This document shows positions 2,993 to 10,478 of a DNA stretch of 37,086 bases, piece after piece (position 1 is the first letter of the stretch; the number at the start of each line of letters is the position of its first letter). The notes beneath the pieces were generated by a model that worked only from the letters and a program-made list of their open reading frames with translations, was not told the DNA's origin and made no database searches. Position numbers and translations under genes: made by a program. The stretch is from a virus. Where the stretch lies: positions 1 through 37,086 of IMG/VR virus record IMGVR_UViG_3300042543_000852, one strand, 5' to 3'.

Positions 2993-3108
2993 TTTTTACC
3001 GTAACGGCAAAATCCTGTCAAGTCGTTAGCGGGAAAATTGCATTGACAGAAAATTGCATTTAGTGCGAATTAGTGATCATGAAATTGCACCATTGGCTCA
3101 AATTAGTG
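2993..3108. promoter_or_regulatory. CI/Cro divergent promoters with repeated operator motifs
   Basis: Leftward promoter for CI: -35 TTGACA (3016-3021, minus), 17-base spacer, -10 TAAAAA (2993-2998). Rightward promoter for Cro: -35 TTGACA (3043-3048), then a weak -10 such as GAATTA (3067-3072). Repeats in and after the gap: GAAAATTGCATT at 3033-3044 and exactly again at 3049-3060 (16-base step), with a shorter GAAATTGCAC at 3081-3090 (two steps on). AATTAGTG occurs at 3068-3075 and 3101-3108. CTGTCA (3015-3020) and TGACAG (3044-3049) form an inverted repeat. These are the likely CI and Cro operators. Confidence 0.7.
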
Positions 3109-3360
3109 GGAATGAAGCAATCCGAACTCGCATCGATGGTCGGCTGCTCTGTCTCGACCATTAATCGGCACATCAAGCATGGACGCATTCTAGACCCAGA
3201 CGTGGTGGTGCGCATTTACTTCATCACGATGGGTGCCGTCCGCCCCGATGATTATTACGATCTCGAAAATGTTCCCCCCGATGTGCAGGCATTGCTCGAT
3301 CCACGGTTCGCGCTCCGCAAACGTTTCCTGCCAGCGAAAGAAAAAGCGGATGCAGCATGA
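3079..3360 (+). CDS. Cro-like helix-turn-helix regulator
   Basis: 93 residues with a short helix-turn-helix near the N-terminus: KLVGMKQSELASMVG, then SVSTINRHIKHG (about residues 10-37). It is transcribed away from the CI-like gene, so it is probably the Cro/early regulator of the lytic branch. The ATG at 3079 is preferred; a GTG at 3073 is in frame. No Shine-Dalgarno sequence is visible, and the weak -10 at 3067-3072 would place the transcript start at or near the ATG, so the mRNA may be leaderless. It overlaps the next gene by four bases (ATGA), showing one early rightward operon. Confidence 0.8.
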   Translation: MKLHHWLKLVGMKQSELASMVGCSVSTINRHIKHGRILDPDVVVRIYFITMGAVRPDDYYDLENVPPDVQALLDPRFALRKRFLPAKEKADAA

Positions 3361-3683
3361 ACGACGAGCGCCAGCCACTCTCCCCCCGCAGGAAAAACCA
3401 GAGCATGGAGCTGGTGTTCGATGGCGTGCGCTATCAACTGACCATCGGCTTTTACACAAACGGGCGGATCGGCGAGGTCTGGCTGAACGGGCCGCGACCT
3501 GACAGCGCCCTCTACCATATTACCCAGGATGCGTGCGTACTGATCTCACACCTGCTGCAGCGTTTTACCTCACCGCACACGCTGTATGATTCCCTGCCGC
3601 GCAAGGCAGATGGATCGTCTGCGTCGGTGATCGGCGCGATCATTGAACTGCTCATCTCGCTTCCCGAAGTGGAGGTGCCATGA
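3357..3683 (+). CDS. TSCPD-like small phage protein
   Basis: 108 residues. From about residue 17 the protein reads like the TSCPD-type domain found in many alphaproteobacterial prophages: GVRYQLTIGFYTNGRIGEVWLNG, then a helix with DACVLISHLLQRF and a final SASVIGAIIELL. TSCPD domains also occur in some ribonucleotide reductases, but this short stand-alone form has no known catalytic role. It starts at an ATGA overlap with the Cro-like gene and ends at an ATGA overlap with the DUF1376 gene, so the three are translationally coupled early genes. Function unknown. Confidence 0.65.
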   Translation: MNDERQPLSPRRKNQSMELVFDGVRYQLTIGFYTNGRIGEVWLNGPRPDSALYHITQDACVLISHLLQRFTSPHTLYDSLPRKADGSSASVIGAIIELLISLPEVEVP

Positions 3684-4450
3684 CCAAGCATTTTTACATG
3701 CCGTTTTTTACCGAAGCGTATCTGGCTGACACGCAGCATTTGTCGCTGGAAGAGCAAGGCGCGTATATGCGGCTGCTCTGCTTCATGTGGATGCGTGGTG
3801 GATACTTACGCGATGACGACAAAGAATTATCCCGACTGCTTGGTTTGCATGTGAATAAGTGGAAGAAGATACGCGAAACCCTGGGGGCATTTTTGCAAAA
3901 ACACCCCCCACACTTACTCACTCAGAAGCGTTTAATCCATGAATACCAAAAGGCCGAAGCAAAGCGCGATAGCAAACGGCAAAATGCCAATGCCAGATGG
4001 CAGGGTGAATCCAATAAAAACAATCAGATAGCAAATGCGGATGCATCGCTGCCGCATATGCAAAGCGCATACGAACCATCGTTGTTCGCAGATGCGGGGG
4101 TGGATGCGAACCACATCACTTCTCACCTGCTATCTATATCTATATCTAAATTTAAGAATAATAGATCAGATAGGCTCGGCAGAAACTGTGGACAACTTCG
4201 CCATCCATTCAACGAACAGGACGCTGGGGCATTCAGTGCCAAGCTCGTAGAAATATTCACGCAGCACAAACTTCAGCCGCCCGGCGACTACGAAATCATC
4301 CGCCAATGGATTGATAGCGGCATTGATCCCTTCCAGCACATCCTGCCCGTCATTGCCGAACTGCTGATGCGTAACCTGCAGACGCATAGCGAGCCGCCGC
4401 GCAGCTGGAAGTATTTTGCCAAAGAAGTCTATGCAATGGGGCTTCGGTGA
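3680..4450 (+). CDS. DUF1376 (YdaU-like) phage replication-region protein
   Basis: 256 residues. The N-terminal 95 residues match the DUF1376 pattern: FYMPFFTEAYLADTQHLSLEEQGAYMRLL, a WMRGGYLRDDD turn and a winged-helix-like region with LSRLLGL. A basic, polar linker follows (about 95-130). The C-terminal part (about 180-256) contains a region resembling phage replication or primosome proteins (DYEIIRQWIDSGIDPFQHILPVI, then PPRSWKYFAKE). DUF1376 proteins sit in phage replication regions and may act like helicase loaders or origin-binding proteins. That role is inferred from family and position. It overlaps both neighbours by one to four bases. Confidence 0.75.
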   Translation: MTKHFYMPFFTEAYLADTQHLSLEEQGAYMRLLCFMWMRGGYLRDDDKELSRLLGLHVNKWKKIRETLGAFLQKHPPHLLTQKRLIHEYQKAEAKRDSKRQNANARWQGESNKNNQIANADASLPHMQSAYEPSLFADAGVDANHITSHLLSISISKFKNNRSDRLGRNCGQLRHPFNEQDAGAFSAKLVEIFTQHKLQPPGDYEIIRQWIDSGIDPFQHILPVIAELLMRNLQTHSEPPRSWKYFAKEVYAMGLR

Positions 4451-5022
4451 TGGGAAAAAAGCAACGCAAACCACGCCAACGCACGCACGCCATCCAACTG
4501 GAGGCGGATCGCGGCACGCCGGAGTTTCAGGCAAAGGTGAAGCTGGAGACGGTGTATCTCGACCGCAAGACCACGGCCACGCGGGTGCGTGATAAACGCC
4601 CCATCGATAAATACCACCGCCTCTACAAGATTGATGAGGAGAACGGCGTGCGCGAGGCTGACCGGCGCGGCATCAACGACGCGCAATACCGTGCTGCCGA
4701 CCGCATTGCCTGCAACCATGAGAAGACGCACCCGCGCCTGTCGCGTGAGCTGGTGCCAATGGTGTTCGATAAAGGCATCAACCCCGGCGCATACCCGCTG
4801 GAGATACAGATCGAGGCCGTGCATCTGCACGACCGTCTGCTCAGGCCGCTCAATAATGAATCACGCAGCATGGTGCGGCAGATCTGTTGCTACGGGGAAT
4901 GCCTCAACGAGTACGAGGCTGCCAGACGGTGGCGCAAAGGTTACGGGATGATCCGCCTGCGTGAGGCACTCGATGAGTTGGTGGAGTCATTTAGAAAAAC
5001 AAAGAATTCATATACCTTCTGA
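4450..5022 (+). CDS. DUF6456-like protein, possible late-gene regulator
   Basis: 190 residues from the ATG at 4450, which overlaps the previous stop codon (TGATG); a GTG at 4447 is also in frame. The first 60 residues are basic (KKQRKPRQRTH). The C-terminal 70 residues resemble DUF6456: HDRLLRPLNNESRSMVRQICCYGECLNEYEAARRW, then RLREALDELVESF. This domain is common in alphaproteobacteria and phages and has a DNA-binding-like helical pattern. As the last gene of the early operon, before the terminator at 5031-5062, it sits where lambdoid phages keep a late regulator, so a role in late-gene control is possible but unproven. Confidence 0.6.
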   Translation: MGKKQRKPRQRTHAIQLEADRGTPEFQAKVKLETVYLDRKTTATRVRDKRPIDKYHRLYKIDEENGVREADRRGINDAQYRAADRIACNHEKTHPRLSRELVPMVFDKGINPGAYPLEIQIEAVHLHDRLLRPLNNESRSMVRQICCYGECLNEYEAARRWRKGYGMIRLREALDELVESFRKTKNSYTF

Positions 5023-5030
5023 TATTAGTA

Positions 5031-5062
5031 AGTAGGCAGGGCTGTAAACAGCCCTGCCTACT
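5031..5062. terminator. Perfect 14-bp hairpin between convergent transcripts
   Basis: AGTAGGCAGGGCTG (5031-5044), loop TAAA, then its exact complement (5049-5062). It lies eight bases after the stop of the early rightward operon and five bases before the end of the leftward copper operon, so it probably terminates both. On + it is followed by ACCTTTAA rather than a long U tract; on - by TTACTAATAT. Confidence 0.85.
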
Positions 5063-5066
5063 ACCT

Positions 5067-5375
5067 TTAATGCTTCATTCCTTCATGCTTCTTTTGCATC
5101 GATTCTTTTTCAGATTTAGCGCAGATTTCGCATTGCTCACCTTCTTTCATGGAAGACATGCCTTCCATTTTACCCATACACATTTTGCACATGCCGTCTT
5201 TACAGCATTTGCATTCGCCAGATTTGCAGCACTCACCGCATTTTCCGTCCTTGCAACACTCACATTTTTCACAGCATGGCATTTTCATGTCCATACCAGA
5301 CATTGAACCACCCTTCGTGTTGGCACAGGCAGTTACAAAAACGAGCAGAATGATAGGCAATAGTTTCTTAAACAT
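5067..5375 (-). CDS. Cysteine-rich metallothionein-like lipoprotein
   Basis: 102 residues. Residues 1-17 form a lipoprotein signal peptide with lipobox FVTAC (lipidated C17). The mature part starts with a Met-rich stretch (SMSGMDMKMP). It then carries a dense cysteine cluster in which a CCKxGxC unit is repeated three times (CCKDGKC, CCKSGEC, CCKDGMC). A final CEIC pair follows, giving 15 cysteines besides the lipid-bearing one, and then an E/K/M-rich tail. Such a protein should bind several Cu(I) ions at the periplasmic face of a membrane. It is the last gene of the copper operon, with an AAGGAG site eight bases upstream. I recognise no named family; the metallothionein-like role is inferred from composition and context. 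Confidence 0.85.
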   Translation of the reverse strand: MFKKLLPIILLVFVTACANTKGGSMSGMDMKMPCCEKCECCKDGKCGECCKSGECKCCKDGMCKMCMGKMEGMSSMKEGEQCEICAKSEKESMQKKHEGMKH

Positions 5376-5398
5376 AACAAATCTCCTTTGGTTGGTGG

Positions 5399-6064
5399 TT
5401 AGTTCTTTTTGATAGTTGAAATCGTGTAGTCATCCTTGCCCGCTGGCTTCAGCGTAAAGGAAACGGCATCACCTTCTTTGACGTTGGACAAGTCAACGCC
5501 ACTATCCGCAGTGAATGTCATCGTCATCACTGGCCAACCCAACGATTTAATCGGATCATGCTTGATTTTGATGGTATGTTTTGCTTCGTCAGCACTCACT
5601 ACTTTTCCAGTAGCGACAACGCCACCGCCTGCAGGTGCTGCTTCGCCACTTTCCAACTTCTTCGTCAGCTTGTGGTGATCCACATTTTTGGTTTCACCTG
5701 CCTTTGAAGGCGCACCCACAATCAGCACCCCATCCATGCCGAGTGCTTCATGCGGGTGGCAGTGATATTTATAGGTTCCTGGCACGGTGAAAGTGTAGGT
5801 GAACTTGTCGCCTTTCTTTTCCTGCATCGGTGACATAATCATTTCATCCACGCCCTTGGGAACGCTCACAAACATCACCTGATGTGCTTCATCCTGCGCG
5901 TTTTCAAACGTGACAGTATCACCAGGCTGGATAGTCAGTTTATCAGGTGAGAAGAAGTTTTGTTTCTTCGCATCATAGTCTGTGACTTCCTTGATGGTGA
6001 ATTCAGCCGCGAATGCAGGTGTTGTTGCCAGCATTAGCGCGGTAGTGAGTAGTAGCTTTTTCAT
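5399..6064 (-). CDS. Periplasmic cupredoxin-CusF fusion copper protein
   Basis: 221 residues with a clear Sec signal peptide (cut after TPAFA, about residue 19). Domain 1, about 22-118, is a plastocyanin-like cupredoxin: ligand candidates H61, C102, H105 and M110 in YHCHPHEALGM. Domain 2, about 150-220, is a CusF-type beta barrel whose copper site is complete: H169, W177, M180, M182, with the same spacing as H36, W44, M47, M49 of E. coli CusF. A Gly/Ala/Glu linker joins them. The protein could take electrons or copper at the first domain and bind Cu(I) at the second. It probably serves CopA and CopB in the periplasm. SD AAGGA lies eight bases before the ATG. Confidence 0.88.
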   Translation of the reverse strand: MKKLLLTTALMLATTPAFAAEFTIKEVTDYDAKKQNFFSPDKLTIQPGDTVTFENAQDEAHQVMFVSVPKGVDEMIMSPMQEKKGDKFTYTFTVPGTYKYHCHPHEALGMDGVLIVGAPSKAGETKNVDHHKLTKKLESGEAAPAGGGVVATGKVVSADEAKHTIKIKHDPIKSLGWPVMTMTFTADSGVDLSNVKEGDAVSFTLKPAGKDDYTISTIKKN

Positions 6065-6089
6065 AAGATTTTCCTTTATAGTTAGTTGA

Positions 6090-6824
6090 TTAAAACATCA
6101 GTCGCAGGCCGAAAGAGCCAACTAGCTCGTCGTTATTTTCCCCGTTACTTTTGGCAATGGAGGAGGTTTCACCGAATTTTCGGCCATAGTGGACATCCAC
6201 ATACGGTGCGAATTTTCGGGTGAATTCGTAGCGCGTTTGCAAGCCTATCTGCCCGTCTGTCACGCCCGCACCAATGTCCTGTTCGTGGACATCTTGTGCT
6301 GAGAGATTGACTTCAACATAAGGCTGCAAAATCAGCTTTTGTGTCAGAAGAAGGTCGTTTTCCTGCCGCAGCCGCGCTGTGACATCGCCATGTTCACTGA
6401 CGAAAAGATGTGCTTCAGTTTCAAACCATTGCTGGGCAAGCCCGTTAATCCCAAGTGTCAGGTATGCAGTAGATTCGGGCTTGGTATCGTAGCGAATCCC
6501 TGCCTGTGCATCCCAGAATGTCGAGATGTTGCGGCTATAGAGTGCCAAAAACTCAGCACTTTCCAGCTTGCTATCGGCACGCTCACCCTCTGATTTTATC
6601 CAGAGCTTGTTTTCATCCGTACCGATCCACCCATCCAAATCCCAGCTTTGAAGCGGCGTTCCATCGGTATTGCTCCCAGCATCGGTTTCCAAACGGAACA
6701 TGTGGAAGATCCCGCCGCCATGCTCTGCAGCCATATCTGCGTGGGCAGAATGATCCGCCGCGAATGCAGGCTGTGCGAGTGCAGTAGTGAGGCTGAGTGC
6801 CATAAGTAAACGCTTATTGTGCAT
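6090..6824 (-). CDS. copB: Copper-resistance outer-membrane protein CopB
   Basis: 244 residues from the ATG at 6824, chosen because GGAGG lies five bases upstream and a Sec signal peptide follows directly (ends QPAFA). The mature start is His-rich (ADHSAHADMAAEHGG). The rest is an amphipathic beta-strand protein ending in LRLMF with a C-terminal Phe, as in outer-membrane barrels. Family marks of CopB/PcoB are visible: WDLDGWIGTDENKLWIKSEGE, FWDAQAGIRYD, LQTRYEFTRKFAPYVDVHYGRKFG. The long Met/His repeats of some CopB proteins are absent, so this is a short form. It overlaps the end of copA by 11 bases, so the two are translationally coupled. Confidence 0.93.
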   Translation of the reverse strand: MHNKRLLMALSLTTALAQPAFAADHSAHADMAAEHGGGIFHMFRLETDAGSNTDGTPLQSWDLDGWIGTDENKLWIKSEGERADSKLESAEFLALYSRNISTFWDAQAGIRYDTKPESTAYLTLGINGLAQQWFETEAHLFVSEHGDVTARLRQENDLLLTQKLILQPYVEVNLSAQDVHEQDIGAGVTDGQIGLQTRYEFTRKFAPYVDVHYGRKFGETSSIAKSNGENNDELVGSFGLRLMF

Positions 6825-8436
6825 GGTGGCCTCCATTGGCTTTGGTTTCTGTAGCAGGCACATCCGCCGCATCGAGCTTGGCGACGACGACCTGACGCAT
6901 CATGCCGCTGGCCATGTGATAGAGCAGATGGCAGTGGAACGCCCATTCGCCGATTTCATCCGCTGTCACCAGCACAGAGTATGACCCACCTGGTGGCACA
7001 ATCACCGTATGCTTGTTGGGTAGCTTTGCCGCAGGCTGGCCGTTCTCCAACTGCACAAACATGCCATGCAGGTGCATCGGGTGCGCCATCATGGTTTCGT
7101 TGGTGAAGTTGAGGCGTACACGCTCGCCATATTTCAGGCGGATGGGTTCGGCCTCCGAGAATTTCTTTTCGTTAATCGTCCAGATGTAGCGTTCCATATT
7201 ACCGCCCAAACGCACGTCGATGGTGCGCTGCGGCTGGCGTTGGTCTTTCTGCACACCCGCGTAGCGCAAGTCAGCGTATGAAAGTGCTTTCTGGCCTTCA
7301 GGCATTCCCGTTTTCGCCCAGCCGCTAATCATATCGGCGGGTGTCATTTCCATATCGGGGTCGTCCTTCATCATCATCTCCATGTTCATATCGGCCATAG
7401 AGAGCAATGCGCGGGGACGGGCTGGCGGGATTTCTCCCTTCATGCCTTCGCGAGTGGCAAGCGTGCCAATGGCGAAGCCCGTGCGGTCAATCGGCTCGGC
7501 AGCGATGGTGTAGGCTTTATCGTCCTTCGGCGTGACAATCACATCGTAGGTTTCCGCAGGCGCGAAACGGAATTCATCCACTGTAACAGGCTCGATGCCC
7601 TGACCATCAGCTTGCACCACGCTCATCTTTAACCCAGGAATCCGCACATCGAAGAATGACATGGCCGAGGCATTGATAAAGCGCAGACGCACTTTCTCAC
7701 CTGGCTTGAAAAGCCCCGTCCAGTTTTGTTTTGGCGATTTGCCATTGGTGAGGAACGTGTAGCCTGTGACATCAGCCAGATCGGTACGCATCATCCGCAT
7801 ATCGCCCCAGTCTTTGGCATCTTTGAACGCCTTGTCCCACCCACGCTCCTTTATATCCGCGAAGAAATCACCAACCGTGAGCCGCGCATTGGCGTAATAA
7901 TCCGACGACTTTTTGAGATTCGCCATGATGTCGCTGGAATGTTCTTCGGAGAAATCGGAAAGCACCACGACATAATCGCGATCCGCCGCAATCGGGTCTT
8001 TGCCTTTAGGCGAAGTGATAATCGAGCCATATAACCCGTCCTGTTCCTGACCGCTGGTATGCGAGTGATACCAGTAAGTGCCAGTTTGCCTTACGGGGAA
8101 ACGGTAGGTGAAGGTCGTCCCTGGCTCTATCGCCTTATAGCCTCCAAACCCTGTTACACCGTCCATTGCGTCGGGCAGTAGCAGGCCGTGCCAATGGATA
8201 GAGGTTGGTTCATCCATTTTATTGGTGACGTGGATCACCGCTTCATCGCCTTCGGTGAAGCGAAGCGTGGGGGCTGGGATGCTCCCATTCACGGTGATTT
8301 TCTCGATTGGTTTGCCAGTAATGTTTACAGGCAACCGCTCAATCGTAAGCGTGTATTCTGATGTTTTGGCGTGTGCAGGAGTGGCTAGAAACCCTACCAT
8401 CAGCAACGCCATCATCAGGGGATGATGTGTTCGCAT
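6814..8436 (-). CDS. copA: Multicopper oxidase CopA (copper resistance)
   Basis: 540 residues from the ATG at 8436 (AAGGA seven bases upstream). Periplasmic oxidase that converts Cu(I) to the less toxic Cu(II). All copper-site motifs are present: HWHG (H81, H83), HSH (H124, H126), HPMHLHG (H452, H455, H457) and HCHLLYHMASGM (H501, C502, H503, H507, M512). A Met-rich insert (MADMNMEMMMKDDPDMEM) near residues 340-360 is typical of CopA/PcoA. The signal peptide (MRTHHPLMMALLMVGFLATPAHA) has no twin arginine, unlike the usual Tat-exported CopA, and the protein is shorter than PcoA. It overlaps copB by 11 bases. Confidence 0.95.
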   Translation of the reverse strand: MRTHHPLMMALLMVGFLATPAHAKTSEYTLTIERLPVNITGKPIEKITVNGSIPAPTLRFTEGDEAVIHVTNKMDEPTSIHWHGLLLPDAMDGVTGFGGYKAIEPGTTFTYRFPVRQTGTYWYHSHTSGQEQDGLYGSIITSPKGKDPIAADRDYVVVLSDFSEEHSSDIMANLKKSSDYYANARLTVGDFFADIKERGWDKAFKDAKDWGDMRMMRTDLADVTGYTFLTNGKSPKQNWTGLFKPGEKVRLRFINASAMSFFDVRIPGLKMSVVQADGQGIEPVTVDEFRFAPAETYDVIVTPKDDKAYTIAAEPIDRTGFAIGTLATREGMKGEIPPARPRALLSMADMNMEMMMKDDPDMEMTPADMISGWAKTGMPEGQKALSYADLRYAGVQKDQRQPQRTIDVRLGGNMERYIWTINEKKFSEAEPIRLKYGERVRLNFTNETMMAHPMHLHGMFVQLENGQPAAKLPNKHTVIVPPGGSYSVLVTADEIGEWAFHCHLLYHMASGMMRQVVVAKLDAADVPATETKANGGHHAQ

Positions 8437-8467
8437 AACTAATCCTTGATTTGCATTGAAAATAGTC

Positions 8468-8490
8468 GCCACGCGCGAAAGCGCTTGGGC
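8468..8490 (-). promoter_or_regulatory. Intercistronic hairpin between copL-like gene and copA
   Basis: On the minus strand GCGC-TTTC-GCGC forms a tight stem-loop, extended by GCC/GGC across a small internal loop. An ACTATTTTC stretch follows about 5 bases later. It lies in the 73-base gap before copA and could be a weak attenuator or an mRNA-stability element setting the CopL-to-CopA ratio. Function inferred. Confidence 0.45.
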
Positions 8491-8509
8491 GTCATACAGA
8501 CAATAGGAC

Positions 8510-8893
8510 TCAAGCTTTGGGAGGGCGTTTTAAGCGATTGGAAAGCGCGGATTCCACCACATCATTGGTGAAGCCGAAGCTGCTTTTGCTGGCAGTTAAA
8601 CGAAAGAGTGATTCACTGCCGTTGCCAAAAATCTTTGACAGGCCGCTATGACAGGTGCTTCCGATGCACTTGCACATACCTTTATCACAGCATTTTCCAG
8701 ATTCTTTATCGTTCTGTGCTGTTTTATCGGATTGCTCGGCCTTAGCCTGTTTGTGGCAATCACCATGTTCTGAGGATGCTTCGGCTTTCTCTACCTTCGC
8801 AGAATCATGAGGCATCATTGCATGAGACGCGGTTGGAAAGCTCGTTGCCATAACGAGTGCCAGAACCATAAACATGCTGATGAAGATTCTCAT
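8510..8893 (-). CDS. copL: CopL-like cysteine/histidine-rich periplasmic protein
   Basis: 127 residues from the ATG at 8893, where a clear signal peptide begins (MRIFISMFMVLALVMATSFP, ending TASHA). The mature protein has a charged region with HGDCHK, a cysteine cluster KCCDKGMCKCIG then TCHSG, and a conserved-looking end SNRLKRPPKA. Its order before copA-copB, its size and its metal-ligand cluster match the copLAB arrangement known from Xanthomonas, where copL is needed for copper-induced copAB expression. The ORF runs upstream to 8986, but that part has no signal peptide. No SD is visible, and the promoter -10 ends seven bases before the ATG, so the message may be leaderless. Family call is moderate. 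Confidence 0.65.
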   Translation of the reverse strand: MRIFISMFMVLALVMATSFPTASHAMMPHDSAKVEKAEASSEHGDCHKQAKAEQSDKTAQNDKESGKCCDKGMCKCIGSTCHSGLSKIFGNGSESLFRLTASKSSFGFTNDVVESALSNRLKRPPKA

Positions 8894-8899
8894 GAGGAT

Positions 8900-8928
8900 A
8901 GCATACACGCTGTTAAGTTTTAATTCAA
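8900..8928 (-). promoter_or_regulatory. Probable promoter of the copper operon
   Basis: On the minus strand: -35 TTGAAT (8923-8928), 17-base spacer, -10 TATGCT (8900-8905). The predicted transcript start is at or next to the ATG of the copL-like gene (8893), consistent with a leaderless mRNA and with the lack of a ribosome-binding site. I saw no clear CueR or CopR/CusR box. Confidence 0.55.
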
Positions 8929-8970
8929 TGTGTAGATGAGGGTAATAAATTAATCCTGCGAACCTTGTCG

Positions 8971-9000
8971 TTGACAGTAGGTGCACCTAGATGCTATACA
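8971..9000 (+). promoter_or_regulatory. Strong rightward promoter with palindromic operator in the spacer
   Basis: -35 TTGACA (8971-8976, consensus), 18-base spacer, -10 TATACA (8995-9000). The spacer holds the perfect 12-base palindrome TAGGTGCACCTA (8978-8989). A dimeric regulator bound there would block or remodel the promoter. It reads into the structured RNA at 9034-9183 and then the ParB-methyltransferase gene. The regulator is unknown. Confidence 0.7.
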
Positions 9001-9033
9001 TTTTTACATCATCCAAGAATTGTTTCTACACAA

Positions 9034-9056
9034 CCTGCTCACCGAGCGGGTTTTTT
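9034..9056 (+). terminator. First terminator of the leader RNA, with an alternative pairing
   Basis: CCTGCTC (9034-9040), loop ACC, GAGCGGG (9044-9050), then six T (9051-9056): a standard intrinsic terminator about 30 bases after the expected transcript start. Its core CCGAGCGG (9042-9049) is also an exact complement of CCGCTCGG at 9072-9079, so the terminator can be exchanged for an antiterminator-type stem. Confidence 0.75.
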
Positions 9057-9242: not shown

Positions 9243-10478
9243 ATGACCGATCTTACCATCCACACCATCGCTACCGAGCGATTGATTCCGTATGCCCGCA
9301 ATGCGCGCACCCATTCGGAAGAACAGATCGCACAGATCATGGCCTCCATCGCGGAGTTTGGATTCATTAATCCGATCCTCGTCGATAAGGAGCATGGCAT
9401 CATCGCTGGGCATGGCAGGTTGATCGCCGCCCAACGGCTTGGCATGAAAGATGTTCCGGTGATCGCCATTTCGCATTTGAGCGAAACGCAAAAACGTGCG
9501 CTGGTCATTGCCGATAACCGCATCGCCATGAATGCGGGATGGGATGAAGATATGCTGCGACTGGAACTGACCGAGCTGCAGGAAGAAAATTACAACCTCG
9601 ACATCATGGGCTTCAGCGAAGACGAGCTGGATAAGCTGCTCGCGCCCATGACGGAGGAAGGCAACACCGAAGACGACGCCGTGCCGGAGGTGGAGGCAAC
9701 CGCCATAAGCAAGCCCGGAGATATGTGGCTGCTCGGTTCGCATCGTTTGCTTTGCGGTGATTCCACCAAGCTCGATGCGGTGGAGCGTGTGCTGGGCGGC
9801 AGCCTCGCCGACATGGTATTTACCGACCCGCCCTACAATGTGAATTACGGCGCTACCGCAAAAGACAAAATGCGCGGCAATAAACGCACCATCAAAAACG
9901 ATAATCTCGGTGCGGAGTTTGAAGAATTCCTGCTGGAGGCATGCACCAATTTCGTCGCCGTGTGCAAGGGCGCAATTTACATCTGCATGTCGTCATCGGA
10001 ACTGGACACACTGCAAAGCGCCTTCCGCAAGGCAGGTGGGCATTGGTCAACTTTTATCATCTGGGCGAAGAATACATTCACGATGGGTCGTGCGGATTAC
10101 CAGCGGCAGTACGAACCGATCCTCTATGGCTGGAAGGAAGGCACCGCCCATTTCTGGTGCGGCGCACGCAACCAGGGCGATGTGTGGTTTTTTAATAAAC
10201 CCGTTTCGAACGACCTCCACCCGACCATGAAGCCAGTGGAGCTGGTGCAGCGTGCAGTGGAAAACTCCAGCAAGAGCCGCGACATCGTGCTTGACCCGTT
10301 CGGTGGCTCCGGCTCGACACTTATCGCCTGCGAAAAAACAGGCCGCAGTGCTTGTCTTATCGAACTCGACCCGAAATATTGCGACGTCATCATCCGCCGC
10401 TGGCAGGAATTTACCGGCAAGGAAGCAACGCTGGAGGAAACAGGTCAGTCGTTTGCGACGCTGGTGGAGGAACGATAG
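9243..10478 (+). CDS. ParB-domain fused DNA methyltransferase (N4/N6 type)
   Basis: 411 residues. N-terminal ParB/sulfiredoxin-like domain, about residues 5-95, with NPILVDKEHGIIAGHGRLIAA. C-terminal amino-methyltransferase domain, about 155-400, with the catalytic DPPYNVNYG (D195-Y198) placed before the AdoMet-binding loop DPFGGSGST (near residue 350), i.e. a beta-class order. It should methylate adenine N6 or cytosine N4 in a short DNA site. No restriction enzyme is nearby, so it is an orphan methylase, probably protecting phage DNA or altering gene expression. The start is ATG at 9243; only a weak GAGA lies upstream. It converges on a leftward gene across a perfect inverted repeat. Confidence 0.92.
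   Translation: MTDLTIHTIATERLIPYARNARTHSEEQIAQIMASIAEFGFINPILVDKEHGIIAGHGRLIAAQRLGMKDVPVIAISHLSETQKRALVIADNRIAMNAGWDEDMLRLELTELQEENYNLDIMGFSEDELDKLLAPMTEEGNTEDDAVPEVEATAISKPGDMWLLGSHRLLCGDSTKLDAVERVLGGSLADMVFTDPPYNVNYGATAKDKMRGNKRTIKNDNLGAEFEEFLLEACTNFVAVCKGAIYICMSSSELDTLQSAFRKAGGHWSTFIIWAKNTFTMGRADYQRQYEPILYGWKEGTAHFWCGARNQGDVWFFNKPVSNDLHPTMKPVELVQRAVENSSKSRDIVLDPFGGSGSTLIACEKTGRSACLIELDPKYCDVIIRRWQEFTGKEATLEETGQSFATLVEER

Follow-up and report, generated by a model that had tools for sequence, protein, structure and literature searches.

The window analyzed here is a single metagenomic virus contig of 37,086 bases. Five leftward genes between 5067 and 8893, each open and full length, encode a CopL-like protein, the multicopper oxidase CopA, CopB, a two-domain protein joining a cupredoxin to CusF, and a Cys-rich lipoprotein (Table 1). 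The first three adjoin one another and run co-directionally on the minus strand from 8893 to 6090. In CopA, the type 1, 2, and 3 copper ligand motifs are intact (HWHG, HSH, HPMHLHG, and HCHLLYHM..M), and the His, Cys, and Met ligand positions are invariant in a family alignment of 16 homologues. The lipoprotein, a probable metal-binding protein, matched no Pfam or NCBIfam family; a homologue occupies the equivalent position in three genomes that carry a related cassette (G001, G003, and G004). The window contains no copper sensor of the CueR, CopRS, or CsoR type, and since it also has neither a P-type ATPase nor an RND pump, the cassette would handle periplasmic copper only.

Table 1 Features of the copper cassette and its borders within the window.
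Feature	Position	Strand	Evidence or remark
DUF6456 gene	4447-5022	+	PF20057; 82% aa in L083, 85% in G249
Inserted cassette (cargo)	~4997-8957		Alignment to L083 and G249
Hairpin between convergent cop and early operons	5031-5045/5048-5062		15-bp perfect arms, 2-nt loop
Cys-rich lipoprotein	5067-5375	-	16 Cys; lipobox VTAC
Cupredoxin + CusF two-domain periplasmic protein	5399-6064	-	PF00127 E 2e-16; PF11604 E 3.5e-24
CopB	6090-6824	-	PF05275 E 1.6e-72
CopA multicopper oxidase	6814-8436	-	TIGR01480, 682.6 bits against a cut-off of 479 (478.95)
CopL-like, first operon gene	8510-8893	-	NF033807, 39.0 bits against a cut-off of 40; 94% aa to the first cop gene of G001
Candidate cop promoter, leaderless type	8900-8928	-	TTGAAT-17-TATGCT, 6 nt before the copL ATG; conserved position
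Phage promoter	8971-9000	+	TTGACA 8971-8976, 18 nt, TATACA 8995-9000; conserved in L083 and G249
ParB-DNA methyltransferase fusion, right neighbor	9243-10478	+	phrog_498 E 1e-165; 91% aa in L083 and L073

On either side of these genes lies phage sequence. The integrase, a CI-like repressor, and the DUF1376 and DUF6456 replication genes are found to the left, with the DUF6456 gene closing a rightward early operon at 3073-5022, and the ParB-methyltransferase, TerL, portal, protease, major capsid protein (MCP), and tail genes are found to the right. The terminase is closest among named phages to that of Wolbachia phage WO (~53%), followed by Rhodobacter phages. Judged by these genes, the backbone is that of an ordinary tailed temperate phage, and both the family matches and the phage flanking genes bear out the first-pass annotation, which had described five leftward cop genes in an otherwise standard prophage. 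The outermost bases of the record are the ends of two stop codons, that of the integrase at its start and that of the endolysin at its finish, a pattern typical of a provirus excised at gene borders. These borders, together with the failure to find att sites, could also indicate a defective prophage that makes no particles and holds a frozen host operon inherited only vertically. However, no gene for integrase, repressor, terminase, portal, protease, capsid, tape measure, tail, or endolysin is interrupted or truncated, and the same phage genes are intact in the G249 prophage and in others, so that we regard a defective prophage as unlikely. Candidate att sites for the G249 prophage were not accepted, the sole 14-bp match lying inside two genes.

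The borders of the insert could be read from relatives. The first-pass annotation had proposed a search for the same backbone without the cassette, and such a backbone exists in an IMG/VR contig (L083), which matches the window DNA up to 4996 and resumes at 8958 with ~7 bp between; its two flanking phage genes are adjacent, ~270-280 bp apart. The alignment leaves the operon where it was first placed, at 5067-8893, but extends the insert beyond it, to ~4997-8957. The last codons of the DUF6456 gene are supplanted by cassette sequence, and the C-terminal ends of its product differ among the relatives compared. G249 contains a near-identical complete prophage (integrase 97%, DUF1376 protein 98%, TerL 94%, MCP 99% aa), in which a different cargo, composed of an NhaA antiporter, a GCS2-family ligase, and a Na+/H+ exchanger (Na_H_Exchanger), lies no more than ~10 bp from the insertion point of the window (L421, G249:C2:36793-40339). 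In four more distant prophages (G244, G012, L084, and L085), the interval between the DUF6456 and methyltransferase genes holds no cargo gene. That the same point may be empty, occupied by cop genes, or occupied by other ion-stress genes indicates a cargo, or moron, site.

These comparisons also bear on whether the record is an assembly chimera, a phage contig to which a cop operon from some co-occurring genome had been joined in error. The record is one metagenomic contig, and at least one copA contig of the collection does look chimeric (L197, in which a truncated copA runs straight into fragments of tail and methyltransferase genes, and which we excluded). Yet a false join in the window would have to coincide with the point at which the independent G249 prophage carries other cargo, since both junctions fall within ~10 bp of it; moreover, the cassette is whole and includes a promoter and a hairpin of its own, and the cop genes are joined identically to a related prophage in two separate MAGs, G001 and G003. 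We therefore consider a chimera very unlikely. Similarly, cop operons often ride on transposons or islands, and the GC content of the cassette (45-54%) is below that of the backbone (~55%), as might be seen had a transposon or integron that moves by its own recombinase landed in the prophage by chance. Against this, no transposase or integrase gene, no terminal inverted repeats, and no target duplication at the junctions were found in 4997-8957, and one site holds two unrelated cargos, leaving chance insertion of this kind highly improbable.

The cassette appears to be equipped with its own regulatory signals. A similar promoter element is located at about the same distance from copL in most of 12 other loci, both chromosomal and phage-borne, and this retained spacing suggests that a promoter, apparently of the leaderless type, arrived with the cassette. 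It was called solely from its conserved position; a consensus promoter scan gave no excess over shuffled sequences. At the other end, the perfect hairpin reported at first pass is present, although its arms are 15 bp with a 2-nt loop rather than 14 bp; it folds as 14 bp with a 4-nt loop (z = -6.7 relative to shuffles) and is without a U-tract. Because the chromosomal cop cassette of G004 likewise ends in a hairpin, equal in size but unrelated in sequence, we interpret 5031-5062 as a probable terminator lacking a U-tract, which would also separate the cassette from the convergent early operon.

Just outside the cassette, the phage promoter that had been predicted on the right was recovered, with a 12-bp palindrome, TAGGTGCACCTA, at 8978-8989 in its spacer. 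This palindrome occurs once in the window; no repeat of it lies near the repressor gene, so that it could not be linked to control by CI. A strong terminator at 9032-9052 follows the promoter by ~50 nt, an arrangement also seen in L083 and, through L421, in G249; the 8971-9052 region likely specifies a small RNA or an attenuator ahead of the methyltransferase gene. Given that the operon adjoins this conserved phage promoter, it might be supposed to serve the phage in lytic growth rather than the lysogen. However, cop transcription would point away from the phage promoter and against the early operon, starting from a promoter of its own, and the products would be exported, slow-acting protective proteins, which makes a lytic role extremely unlikely.

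We then asked what the divergence of the cassette reveals of its history. Relative to G001, dN/dS was 0.08 for copL, 0.07 for copA, 0.05 for copB, 0.08 for cupF, and ~0.24 for the lipoprotein gene. The cassette genes are thus under purifying selection, part of which may have acted in chromosomal copies. Cassette dS ranged from 0.31 to 0.69, compared to 1.1-1.4 for two of the three backbone genes compared, indicating that the cassette has a history of movement distinct from that of the backbone. The copA genes most similar to that of the window (95% aa) are those of G001 and G003, both in related prophages; the copA tree groups them with the window (support 98/88) and places the chromosomal copy of G004 next. 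A single clade of phage-borne copA was rejected (AU test, p = 3e-92), and the tree needs at least three label changes, that is, at least three independent phage associations. A search of 344 genomes of the order found copA scoring above the family cut-off in 32 of them, and most of the copies examined have chromosomal surroundings at many different places. The first-pass annotation had raised the possibility that close relatives all carry the operon at this same locus outside any prophage; the scattered positions, and the location of the nearest copies in prophages, contradict it.

With the genes, ligand residues, empty site, alternative cargo, regulatory signals, and purifying selection all evident at the level of sequence, we consider the cassette highly likely to be a moron, namely a self-contained piece of cargo in a temperate phage that confers copper tolerance on the lysogen. 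In the mechanism we propose, the cassette sits after the early replication operon and ahead of the next unit transcribed rightward; leftward cop transcription would start at the cassette promoter, probably also while the phage is repressed in the lysogen, and would be closed off by the cassette hairpin. All cassette proteins would act outside the cytoplasm: CopA would oxidize Cu(I), while CopB, the cupredoxin-CusF protein, and the Cys-rich lipoprotein would bind copper at the outer membrane and in the periplasm, and CopL would probably tune expression. The lysogen would thereby gain periplasmic copper tolerance, and the phage a fitter host. We infer that the operon is expressed in the lysogen, alters its copper phenotype, and is packaged in infectious virions; such viruses probably pass metal tolerance between bacteria.

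The prophages that carry the nearest copA copies point to a second cargo site. G001:C8 and G003:C154 belong to separate MAGs (titled Rickettsiales and Alphaproteobacteria) and share an identical layout, in which an island of cop, cus, CDF, and P-type ATPase genes lies directly beside the endolysin of a related phage. These prophages resemble the window in their cop genes (copA 89% identical in DNA) and in their tail and lysis genes (72-80% DNA); they differ in that the cargo adjoins the endolysin and is larger, the cus genes encoding an RND pump, and in that the phage has another integration and replication module. On its other side, the G001 island is followed by an orphan protein (orf262), an S24 peptidase, a phage replication protein, and a serine recombinase. 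The orphan family orf262/orf268 (L296:5027-5815, L300:1315-2121), for which no Pfam match was found, borders the second site in several prophages. In G007:C29 (L339/L340), homologous flanks hold a type I restriction-like system, Mrr/STAND, and an AAA ATPase, with host genes next; this defense island lies between the endolysin and the integration module.

Metal-efflux genes are also found just beyond the lysis or tail end of the prophages in G010:C39, G010:C51, G323:C69, G090:C20, G002:C113, and G344:C39, such that at least seven distinct prophages of the order carry metal-efflux islands when G001 and G003 are counted once. The corresponding island loci are L296/L297 (G001:C8), L298 and L300 (G010), L392 (G323), L422 (G090), L425 (G002), and L426 (G344). 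Two more multi-gene cargos adjoin the endolysin in G338:C1 and G329:C7 (L428 and L444), the former resembling a DndC/cysteine-desulfurase type system.

Plasmids, transposons, and genomic islands are the vehicles normally associated with metal resistance. A single point that is empty, filled by a copper operon, or filled by other ion-stress cargo in close relatives constitutes unusually clean evidence of moron exchange. The order concerned, whose MAGs are titled Rickettsiales, is best known for intracellular bacteria. The copies most closely related to this operon likewise reside in phages, at a second site, so temperate phages may routinely carry metal tolerance in this order. Virus databases probably undercount such cargo, since provirus-calling tools cut out host-like genes: many metal islands at the endolysin or tail end would be trimmed, and in the present record itself the last base belongs to the stop codon of the endolysin, which borders the second site. 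A broader reading, possible but doubtful, is that a family of temperate phages in the order to which G001 belongs has two standing cargo sites, one after the replication operon and one after the endolysin, that are repeatedly and independently loaded with cop, cus, czc, P-type ATPase, CDF, NhaA, or defense genes, and that these phages form a main route by which metal tolerance spreads. Protist phagosomes kill prey with copper, and such a route would perhaps be explained by the many bacteria of the order that live in or near protists.

Finally, we compared the operon with known systems and with earlier reports of phage-borne copper genes. In its copL-copA-copB order, its TIGR01480 CopA, and its PF05275 CopB, it resembles copLAB of Xanthomonas and Stenotrophomonas and PcoAB/CopAB; unlike these, it adds the cupredoxin-CusF fusion and the Cys-rich lipoprotein, is without copCD and copRS, and resides in a prophage, whereas they are found on plasmids or chromosomes. 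The first-pass annotation had judged a full cop operon on a phage to be uncommon. A profile scan of IMG/VR agrees with this, giving just two other copA contigs, one a fragment and the other with a Pco-type region adjoining ars-like genes and a mutagenesis-polymerase gene; a scan with a single CopA sequence gave nothing in IMG/VR. On the other hand, phage copper genes as such have already been described. Three Streptococcus suis phages (phi-SsuSSJ28_rum, phi-SsuHCJ3_rum, and YS43; MN270276, MN270269, and OP662531) also carry a multicopper oxidase, and the one examined, MN270276, has in addition a copper-operon repressor, a copper ATPase, and cadmium genes. Their cargo differs in being of the Gram-positive cytoplasmic export type, in lying at the integrase end, and in having an oxidase only ~28% identical, with no CopB or CopL.

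Within the Alphaproteobacteria, the Paracoccus prophage vB_PspS_PD33 is reported to carry a copper ATPase and a multicopper oxidase (PMC6536676) but, going by its published description, no copLAB operon. A groundwater viral contig includes copper among other metal genes (PMC8269241). Certain apparent precedents were set aside. Four copA records named 'Acinetobacter phage MD-2021a' were dropped, the one examined (L249, CAKLQH020000046.1) being a bacterial chromosome contig, with argJ, nadA, and four tRNAs, filed as phage, and a Mannheimia paper was not used, its multicopper oxidase residing on ICEs and not on phages. Relative to the open-licence PMC papers covered, two aspects are new: first, a phage with a complete copLAB-type operon whose insertion point is mapped both empty and with other cargo; second, the repeated appearance of metal cargo across this phage family.
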